Virus record (IMG/VR): IMGVR_UViG_3300032954_000055
Coordinates: 1 to 30,336 of that record
Origin: a virus
Length of the DNA: 30,336 nucleotides
Direction: 5' to 3' (one strand)
Shown: positions 23,116 to 24,523 of the stretch, one piece after another
Position numbering within the stretch: the stretch's first letter is position 1
How the letters are laid out: each line of letters opens with the position of its first letter
Program-made: the position numbers and the translations under genes
Notes under the pieces: model-generated
The model's input: the letters and a program-made list of their open reading frames with translations, nothing else
What the model was told of the DNA's origin: nothing
Database searches by the model: none

Positions 23116-23373
23116 TTAATTTCCTTTTGCTTTCTTAGACGAAGACTTCCAACTACGGCCGCCTTTGCCAGATTTCTTGTAAATAGACGTAGAACCTGCA
23201 TCATTATACGACTCAGTCTTAGAGTCAGTATCTGTAGTACCGGCGTAGTCTCCTGATTGTAACTCAGCTAGAGAATACCATTGATTCTTCTCATAGCCTT
23301 CAAAGTTCCTACGTTCCTCTTGTGTATCACAGATAGGAAGCTTATAACTGTTGATATTATTTCCTTGTTCCAT
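23116..23373 (-). CDS. Small hydrophilic protein (85 aa)
   Basis: The product starts MEQGNNINSYKLPICDTQEE and has an acidic middle with YSLAELQSGDYAGTTDTDSK. It ends in a basic Ser/Lys/Gly tail (YKKSGKGGRSWKSSSKKAKG). No membrane segment or known motif is seen. The start overlaps the preceding stop as TAATG. The split between an acidic body and a basic tail suggests binding to nucleic acid or a protein partner, but that is conjecture. Confidence 0.55.
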   Translation of the reverse strand: MEQGNNINSYKLPICDTQEERRNFEGYEKNQWYSLAELQSGDYAGTTDTDSKTESYNDAGSTSIYKKSGKGGRSWKSSSKKAKGN

Positions 23374-23507
23374 TAATCTGAACCTCTAGTAACTGGTCTC
23401 TTCTTGTGTGTGCTGTTGTAAATTCTTGCTGCTTTAGTCTTAGCTTCTTCTTCACTAAGTCCTTGTTTCATAAAAGCATCGCGCATCGCGGTATACTGTC
23501 TAGGCAT
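23373..23507 (-). CDS. Small basic helical protein (44 aa)
   Basis: Reads MPRQYTAMRDAFMKQGLSEE then EAKTKAARIYNSTHKKRPVT and ends RGSD. The middle GLSEEEAKTKAARIYN looks like a helix-turn-helix-sized segment, and short phage proteins with the pattern MRDAFMKQGLSEEEAKTKAA are familiar near packaging genes. Function is not known. Both ends are TAATG junctions with the neighbouring genes, which fixes start and stop. Confidence 0.65.
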   Translation of the reverse strand: MPRQYTAMRDAFMKQGLSEEEAKTKAARIYNSTHKKRPVTRGSD

Positions 23508-23611
23508 TACATATTCCAATCTTCTTCATCTTGAACACAATTTAAACAATACGTAATTGTATAAGGCCAAGTTGTTTTACATTTAGGACATACCCAAGTT
23601 TCTTCAGGCAT
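23507..23611 (-). CDS. Zinc-finger microprotein 4 (34 aa)
   Basis: A 34-residue protein starting MPEETWVCPKCKTTW with cysteines at 8, 11, 22 and 25, that is CxxC-x10-CxxC. Trp6 precedes the first Cys as W-x-C, as in RanBP2-type fingers, but the usual Asn three residues after the second Cys is Trp15. Almost the whole protein is the metal site plus an acidic tail (VQDEEDWNM). It overlaps the previous zinc gene by 8 nt and the next gene by TAATG. Zinc binding is inferred from the four cysteines; partners are unknown. Confidence 0.65.
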   Translation of the reverse strand: MPEETWVCPKCKTTWPYTITYCLNCVQDEEDWNM

Positions 23612-23699
23612 CGAAGAACGCCTTTCCACAACGGTAGCAGTTATTCTTATCCGTATAAAAGTTCTTCTGACAATTAGAACAGTATTTCCATTCAGGCAT
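23604..23699 (-). CDS. Zinc-finger microprotein 3 (31 aa)
   Basis: Thirty-one residues starting MPEWKYCSNCQKNFY, with cysteines at 7, 10, 21 and 24 in the spacing CxxC-x10-CxxC. Trp4 lies two residues before the first Cys, and the loop has TDKNN before CYRCGKAFFDA. Its start shares TAATG with the preceding zinc gene and its TGA lies inside the start region of the next one. The protein is a bare zinc ribbon and could bind nucleic acid or a polymerase subunit; that is inference. Confidence 0.65.
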   Translation of the reverse strand: MPEWKYCSNCQKNFYTDKNNCYRCGKAFFDA

Positions 23700-23803
23700 T
23701 AGTCTCTAAGTCTCCCACAGCGTCTACATGTGAGTCTAGTTACAGGATTAACTTTGTCACACATTACGCATCTCCAGTAGTCATCTATCGGAGTTATACT
23801 CAT
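23699..23803 (-). CDS. Zinc-finger microprotein 2, exact RanBP2-type pattern (34 aa)
   Basis: Starts MSITPIDDYWRCVMCDKVN and ends TCRRCGRLRD. Residues 10-29 fit W-x-C-x2-C-x3-N-x6-C-x2-C exactly: Trp10, Cys12, Cys15, Asn19, Cys26, Cys29. That is the RanBP2-type zinc-finger consensus, whose known members bind single-stranded RNA or ubiquitin. The C-terminus is basic. Start and stop overlap the adjacent zinc genes (ATGA and TAATG). The match is seen in the sequence; RNA binding is only suggested by the family. Confidence 0.68.
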   Translation of the reverse strand: MSITPIDDYWRCVMCDKVNPVTRLTCRRCGRLRD

Positions 23804-23883
23804 TTCCCATCAATTCTCATGTGACATTTCTTACAGGTTATACGACCTTCTTTGTTAATAAATCCACAGTATGGGCATTTCAT
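23800..23883 (-). CDS. Zinc-finger microprotein 1 (27 aa)
   Basis: Only 27 codons: MKCPYCGFINKEG then RITCKKCHMRIDGK. Cysteines are at 3, 6, 17 and 20, again CxxC-x10-CxxC, and Asn10 lies three residues after the second Cys as in RanBP2-type fingers, but there is no leading Trp. Its TGA overlaps the next zinc gene's ATG. The gene is 8 nt after the stop of the 61-aa gene. It is the shortest of the four and is essentially one metal-binding knuckle pair. Confidence 0.6.
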   Translation of the reverse strand: MKCPYCGFINKEGRITCKKCHMRIDGK

Positions 23884-23891
23884 AGTAATTC

Positions 23892-24077
23892 TTATTCATC
23901 CTCTTCGGTATAGAATTCTCCGAAGTTATTCTTAATTCTATCTTTAATATGTCTAATACCTATGTAATTAGTATTTCTATCGTAAGTATCTTCTCTACTC
24001 TGACGTTCTTCAGGAGTTAAGCTATTCCAAGCTAACCAATGCTTAGGTCTAAATTTATATCCTAGGTTAAATTTCAT
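23892..24077 (-). CDS. Small protein, first gene of the late block (61 aa)
   Basis: Starts MKFNLGYKFRPKHWLAWNSL, then has TPEERQSREDTYDRNTNY, and ends GEFYTEEDE. It is charged with no membrane segment or recognised motif. The N-terminal half is basic and the C-terminus acidic. It is the most upstream gene of the minus-strand operon; beyond it is the divergent AT-rich gene. A clear minus-strand promoter was not found upstream, so transcription may begin further back or at a non-sigma70 site. Confidence 0.5.
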   Translation of the reverse strand: MKFNLGYKFRPKHWLAWNSLTPEERQSREDTYDRNTNYIGIRHIKDRIKNNFGEFYTEEDE

Positions 24078-24079
24078 AG

Positions 24080-24107
24080 TTGACTTAGTTAATTACTGTA
24101 GTATAAT
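24080..24107 (+). promoter_or_regulatory. Sigma70-like promoter of the AT-rich gene
   Basis: TTGACT at 24080-24085 and TATAAT at 24102-24107 are separated by 16 bp, a near-consensus host promoter. It sits in the 28-bp gap before the divergent late genes. The expected start of transcription is near 24114. Two later plus-strand promoters use the same 16-bp spacing. Confidence 0.75.
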
Positions 24108-24117
24108 GCATAGTTCC

Positions 24118-24133
24118 AATAGTATATACTATT
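24118..24133. promoter_or_regulatory. 16-bp perfect palindrome just after the promoter
   Basis: AATAGTATATACTATT is its own reverse complement and begins about four bases after the expected transcription start. That location suits a repressor operator. It lies between the promoter and the likely TTG start at 24151. Confidence 0.45.
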
Positions 24134-24150
24134 ACAAAGGATTTGTCAAA

Positions 24151-24516
24151 TTGTTAGATAGAATAAAAGAAATTCATAAGCATTTAAGAATTGCTAATAA
24201 ATATTATAAAGATGAATGTAGTGATTATAATATATTAGGAACTAAAGCTAGAGTCTTCGTAGATCAAAGTTATTGGTATATTTATATATTTGGGTACTCT
24301 TGGAGTTTAGCTAAGAGGTATCTCAGTTTTATGGAGGTGTTTCAAGACGGAGATCACGAAGGAATTCTTAAATTAAATAGAATGCCTTCTTTCAAAGAAG
24401 CTATGATTATACGTAGAATTGCTGGTTTTAGGAAGAAAAGAGTACTTTCTGCTTCGGATCGTAAAAAAGCTATTGAACGTATACAAAATTTTATGTTCAA
24501 GCCCGGCTATAAATAG
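24151..24516 (+). CDS. AT-rich orphan gene, moron-like cassette (121 aa, TTG start)
   Basis: This gene runs opposite to the late operon and has its own promoter and terminator. An in-frame ATG at 24106 overlaps the promoter's -10 box, so it cannot lie on the transcript; the first start behind a ribosome site (AAAGGA at 24136-24141) is TTG at 24151. The product is basic and helical, begins with the TTG codon then LDRIKEIHKHLRIAN, and has an aromatic patch (SYWYIYIFGYSWSLAKRY) and a basic end. By hand count two 60-base lines in the gene have 13 and 11 G+C (about 20 percent), far below the surroundings. No family was recognised. Self-contained transcription and foreign composition suggest a recently acquired gene, possibly expressed outside the lytic programme. 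Confidence 0.65.
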   Translation: MLDRIKEIHKHLRIANKYYKDECSDYNILGTKARVFVDQSYWYIYIFGYSWSLAKRYLSFMEVFQDGDHEGILKLNRMPSFKEAMIIRRIAGFRKKRVLSASDRKKAIERIQNFMFKPGYK

Positions 24517-24523
24517 CCTTTTT
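24505..24523 (+). terminator. Intrinsic terminator of the AT-rich gene
   Basis: GGCTA-TAAA-TAGCC followed by TTTTT. The stem contains the gene's TAG stop codon. It is short but placed as expected for a factor-independent terminator. Confidence 0.6.

Follow-up and report, generated by a model that had tools for sequence, protein, structure and literature searches.

Four overlapping genes for predicted single-finger zinc microproteins near the head of a virion-gene operon in a cobavirus relative

What might four consecutive microprotein genes, each with four cysteines in the same spacing, be doing near the head of a phage virion-gene operon? The question arises from the window, that is, the whole stretch of 30,336 nucleotides analysed here (IMG/VR record IMGVR_UViG_3300032954_000055). 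The phage is a relative of the Zobellviridae/Cobavirinae: its large terminase subunit (TerL) is 58–61% identical, over 91–97% of the length, to those of the marine cobaviruses SIO1, P12053L and ICBM1/3, and 62–74% identical to those of 80 IMG/VR contigs. The terL, portal, scaffold and capsid genes follow each other as in MEP401, and portal, capsid and endolysin genes belong to the same minus-strand unit as terL. Naming the host through bacterial genomes was attempted, and the two TerL matches in metagenome bins (Dependentiae and Saprospiraceae) were too weak for this. For the six ORFs scanned in the right part of the contig (25151–29960, plus strand), PHROG yielded nothing at E ≤ 0.01. The array makes up genes 2–5 of the minus-strand operon, and the features of the region are as follows:

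24121..24149, minus strand: sigma-70-type promoter TTGACA-17-TATACT, 11/12, 44 nt ahead of the 61-aa gene
24080..24107, plus strand: opposing sigma-70-type promoter TTGACT-16-TATAAT, 11/12, interleaved with the leftward promoter
23892..24077, minus strand: 61-aa gene that opens the leftward operon and precedes P1, coding supported by codon usage
23800..23883, minus strand: P1, 27-aa microprotein MKCPYCGFINKEGRITCKKCHMRIDGK, C-x2-C-x10-C-x2-C with the RanBP2 Asn and without the Trp, charge +4.5
23699..23803, minus strand: P2, 34-aa microprotein with the complete W-x-C-x2-C-x3-N-x6-C-x2-C of a RanBP2-type finger
23604..23699, minus strand: P3, 31-aa microprotein MPEWKYCSNCQKNFYTDKNNCYRCGKAFFDA, C-x2-C-x10-C-x2-C with Trp at −3 (shifted by one) and no Asn
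23507..23611, minus strand: P4, 34-aa microprotein MPEETWVCPKCKTTWPYTITYCLNCVQDEEDWNM, W-x-C retained, Trp in place of Asn, acidic tail, charge −4.5
23373..23507, minus strand: 44-aa anchor gene, conserved (MRDAFxxxGxSxxxAKxKAAxIxN), following immediately on the array and starting in the stop of P4
19168..20733, minus strand: large terminase subunit gene terL, 2.8 kb downstream of the array

An earlier note on this DNA had described these four genes of 27, 34, 31 and 34 codons, with identical cysteine spacing and start-stop overlaps, at the head of a late operon. A re-check of the open reading frames agrees on positions, lengths and spacing, and the overlaps are 4 nt between P1 and P2 (ATGA), 1 nt between P2 and P3 (TAATG) and 8 nt between P3 and P4; the P4 stop and the anchor-gene start likewise share 1 nt (TAATG). 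The place in the operon also holds in substance, the array being close to the head and behind the 61-aa gene, for which a family search gave nothing above noise. As had been noticed, one protein completes the RanBP2 pattern and others keep the Trp or the Asn: in the array the full W-x-C-x2-4-C-x3-N-x6-C-x2-C signature is found only in P2, while P1 has the Asn and P4 the Trp at −2.

Profile searches agree with the family assignment suggested by this pattern only below threshold. P2 matches Zn_ribbon_RanBP (E=4e-4, 20.0 bits vs. a gathering score of 27) and P1 matches Zn_ribbon_3 (E=3.1e-5), both under the gathering score. Against PF00641 (gathering 27), P4 scores 7.2 bits, P1 and P3 have no match, and none of the four reaches the threshold; the best score among the relatives tested, 24.5 bits for the first finger of the relative L018, is also under it. 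The best PDB sequence match of P2 is the C4 finger of MDM2 (E=2e-5), and that of a profile built from the clade is the archaeal ribosomal protein eL40. Structure models, which cover P2 and P3, point the same way. The AlphaFold model of P2, with a core pLDDT of about 95, is a two-hairpin C4 zinc ribbon of the RanBP2 type, and its top Foldseek matches are nearly all RanBP2-type fingers (MDM2, Nup358, Trabid, RBM5, HOIP, Nup153 and ZRANB2), most superposing within 0.4–0.6 Å over 24–26 residues and most with a probability of 0.96–1.0. The model of P3 (pLDDT 86.8) has a ZRANB2 finger as its first match (probability 0.92), weaker than that of P2. Owing to the shortness of the proteins, Foldseek E-values for both exceed 0.05. 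From these models, the RanBP2-type fold is near certain for P2 and less firmly assigned for P3. Furthermore, among 17 clade fingers chosen by their cysteines only, a set that includes P1–P4, Trp stands at −2 in 11 (p about 1e-16 for a 1.5% background) and 10 have the RanBP2 Asn in its place (p about 8e-9 for a 6% background); these p-values are indicative, since they rest on assumed background frequencies and on proteins that are not independent of each other.

Similar microproteins recur in related phages. Across 876,585 bases from TerL-related loci, a scan found 28 Cys4 microproteins, vs. 0–3 in resampled sequence. L018 carries four fingers consecutively, all with the complete RanBP2 signature, and a fifth with its stop codon overlapping the start codon of the 44-aa anchor gene. 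L036 and L048 have two fingers each at the very head of a rightward operon, with a promoter match within about 50 nt of the pair (10/12 and 12/12, respectively). In related phages, such arrays and pairs do recur upstream of terL. Between these two phages, whose TerLs share 84% identity, the fingers correspond one to one as collinear orthologs, with identities of 56% and 45%, and all eight cysteines are retained. Their pN/pS is 0.33/0.66 (about 0.5) for the finger pair and 0.11/0.64 (0.17) for terL. For the window's own P1–P4, no ortholog came to light. Elsewhere, L009 has a single finger gene, and L031, L051, L067 and L069 have similar finger genes on the opposite strand; the RanBP2-like microprotein of L067 (1182–1265) is the first called gene of the opposite-strand operon and adjoins the strand switch. 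Directly downstream of terL, one or two zinc microproteins are present in L054 (7004–7105), L058 (11573–11668) and L059 (11563–11771, between terL and portal), a second recurrent insertion point. Single-finger proteins of the RanBP2 type occur in many further IMG/VR contigs as well, and L127, L151 and L172, which were found by pattern and not by TerL, carry adjacent or overlapping pairs of them.

The position itself is more constant than its content. The anchor gene was detected in 11 TerL relatives, and in 9 of the 11 a promoter matching at 10–12 of 12 positions lies upstream of it; the same conserved promoter also precedes finger-free operons. When whole relatives were searched by profile, 6 of 30 records matched, SIO1, P12053L and MEP401 being without a match, and tblastn found no close P2 homolog in named phages. 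Because most relatives with both promoter and anchor gene hold other small genes, or none, in this slot, the fingers are optional cargo of a conserved slot. One such other gene, at the first position of the slot in L018 (1128–1367), L017 (2921–3226) and L021 (5112–5420), encodes a small Cys-rich protein (CCxxxxCHPxxxC...CHxCI), which in L017 and L021 has a hydrophobic segment at its N-terminus.

Are the four frames translated at all? The alternative, in which the cysteine pattern of untranslated frames is a coincidence or a relic, draws on the poor codon-usage signal and the weak ribosome-binding sites of the array. Codon usage lends weak support to P4 (0.043 of open shuffles score equally high), no significant support to P3 (0.33 of open shuffles) and none to P1 and P2, for which it is uninformative or unfavourable. 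With only about 30 Cys-rich codons per gene, such a weak signal is expected and therefore indecisive. Against coincidence stands the codon pattern of C-x2-C-x10-C-x2-C, which occurs four times in the 30-kb window, every time in register within the array, where 0.05 occurrences are expected; none of 100 shuffles reached four. The recurrence of slot and signature in relatives and the purifying selection on the orthologous pair of L036 and L048 argue in the same direction. Hence P1–P4 are very probably real genes, and we regard the untranslated alternative as very improbable. An RNA element in place of genes was also considered and dropped, as the Rfam search gave no match and no tRNA was found, and so was one multi-finger protein fused by frameshifting, each finger being separated by stops. 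That all four genes fall below gene-calling cut-offs, as had been supposed, is too strong: with the usual gene-caller minimum of 90 nt, this applies to P1 (84 nt) alone and not to P2–P4.

The origin of the set is a separate matter. The earlier note saw in it an expanded family, a view that is not sustained: the mutual similarity of P1–P4 is no greater than that of random sets of four unrelated phage fingers, and only P1 and P2 stand above background. Recent tandem duplication of the four was rejected on this ground. Positions outside the Cys, Trp, Asn and Gly residues are free to vary.

The promoters at the operon head suggest when the array would be expressed. Sites at the 11/12 level occur just twice in the 30-kb window, both here, where 0.65 would be expected by chance. 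Host RNA polymerase would read the slot from the start of infection through the near-consensus sigma-70 promoter; such early expression is likely, given the promoter in front and the lack of an RNA polymerase gene in cobavirus SIO1 (PMC6775973). The two near-consensus promoters at 24080–24149 face each other and their predicted start sites abut, so that only one of them should be occupied at a time, a polymerase on either probably blocking the other; the pair is a possible early/late switch. On the plus strand, TTG 24151, preceded by AAAGGA, is the probable start codon of the ORF at 24106–24516, whose end lies at a terminator-like hairpin (24505–24518).

Taken together, the reading that we prefer is that the array is exchangeable cargo of host-directed, protein-binding adaptors made from a promoter read by the host, to which we give a probability of about 0.45. 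Each gene would encode an autonomous RanBP2-type C4 zinc finger and almost nothing else, and the overlapping genes would be translated by coupled re-initiation. Each finger may then act as a small adaptor whose exposed face binds a host (or phage) protein, the set as a whole being fast-evolving, exchangeable accessory cargo that would tune the host during take-over. RanBP2-type fingers do bind proteins, as in MDM2-RPL11 and Nup153-Ran. Since charges range from +4.5 to −4.5 and no surface residues are conserved, a different protein target for each finger is favoured over a shared nucleic-acid function. Zinc binding by P1–P4 is predicted, and it counts against the adaptor reading that in Haloferax several microproteins with a predicted zinc site turned out not to bind the metal (PMC11241148), that codon usage does not favour P1 and P2, and that the promoter is also present ahead of finger-free operons. 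Tentatively, and with more doubt, the slot may be a modular battery in which each phage keeps its own combination of fingers, each directed at a different host protein of transcription, translation or defence, expressed early from a conserved host-type promoter and traded like anti-defence genes.

The main rival to the adaptor reading holds that the fingers are RNA-binding translational regulators of the phage Mu Com or ZRANB2 type, controlling the downstream operon. Phage Mu offers a precedent in Com (62 aa; PMC6483171), a small C4 zinc protein that binds mRNA; P1 and P2, both basic, retain the Arg at C3−3, and the fingers of EWS and FUS bind GGU using just that Arg of the pair (PMC6384913). 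RNA-binding RanBP2 fingers, however, require an aromatic residue together with one or two Arg (PMC6384913), and of the ZRANB2-type features for single-stranded RNA (an aromatic residue after the Asn, R19 and R20), P1 and P2 keep R20 alone. The Arg-Arg pair is found in 0 of the 17 clade fingers, an aromatic residue at the stacking position in 2, and the fingers of P4 and L018 are acidic or neutral. Canonical GGU-RNA binding was thus discarded, its signature being missing from all 17, and the suggestion of the earlier note that the proteins may bind RNA finds no support in the canonical single-stranded RNA signature. No window protein matches the Com family, and neither Com nor Ogr/delta families are among the Pfam matches of P1–P4 up to E=10. 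RNA regulation is judged unlikely.

Still less probable, though conceivable from the setting, is a role of the proteins as transcription factors that would activate the late operon by binding the RNA polymerase of the host, in the manner of P2 Ogr and P4 delta. In P2-like phages small zinc proteins are such late-operon activators, and the array lies between two divergent units, beside two interleaved promoters, in a relative of a phage without its own RNA polymerase (SIO1; PMC6775973). Against this, Ogr/delta Pfam matches are absent, cysteine spacing and protein size differ, and the fingers appear unneeded for the operon because many relatives with the same promoter have none. The least probable of the rivals is that they are NZF fingers for ubiquitin-like partners, another suggestion of the earlier note. 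The fold is common to the NZF fingers of Trabid and HOIP, but the Thr-hydrophobic dipeptide after the second Cys is absent from all 17 clade fingers, so that canonical ubiquitin binding was set aside, and there is no evidence of a ubiquitin-like system in the host.

RanBP2-type fingers are usually viewed as modules within larger eukaryotic proteins; here a bare finger is the whole product, and phages of one clade carry as many as four or five of them in operon arrays. A literature search for RanBP2 fingers in phages, or for operon arrays of bare RanBP2-type fingers, found no description among the papers covered, which does not disprove their existence. Gene callers and homology searches tend to overlook such proteins. 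Should the slot prove to be an early accessory locus, it would offer a compact, addressable site for finding new host-binding phage proteins, together with a natural collection of binding scaffolds about 30 residues long.

Among known systems, the RanBP2-type fingers (PF00641; ZRANB2, Nup153, Npl4/NZF, MDM2) share the cysteine spacing, the Trp and Asn of P2 and its predicted fold, whereas the phage proteins consist of one finger only, score below the Pfam gathering threshold and lack the RNA and ubiquitin contact residues. The same C-x2-C-x10-C-x2-C ribbon is present in archaeal eL40, a ribosomal protein without Trp at −2, and this likeness may be convergent. The C(P)XCG micro-proteins of Haloferax volcanii, like those of the array, have fewer than 70 aa and one C4 zinc site; many are encoded per genome and their functions are mostly unknown (PMC6562870, PMC11241148). 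Their genes are archaeal and chromosomal, however, and the HMM of the HVO_2753 family weakly matches no more than one or two of the phage proteins. Phage Mu Com is likewise a small phage C4 zinc protein but has 62 aa, a disordered tail and a role as RNA-binding translational activator (PMC6483171). The zinc ribbons of Bacillus phage G (about 35 copies; PMC7824862) resemble the array in that many occur in one phage, several of them neighbouring. They were rejected as kin, being a larger family of different spacing: the ribbons of phage G have about 92–118 aa, a second knuckle that is wider and mostly C-x3-C, and a common C-terminal tail, and are clearly paralogous, whereas the window fingers are single, of about 30 aa, and not paralogous-looking.
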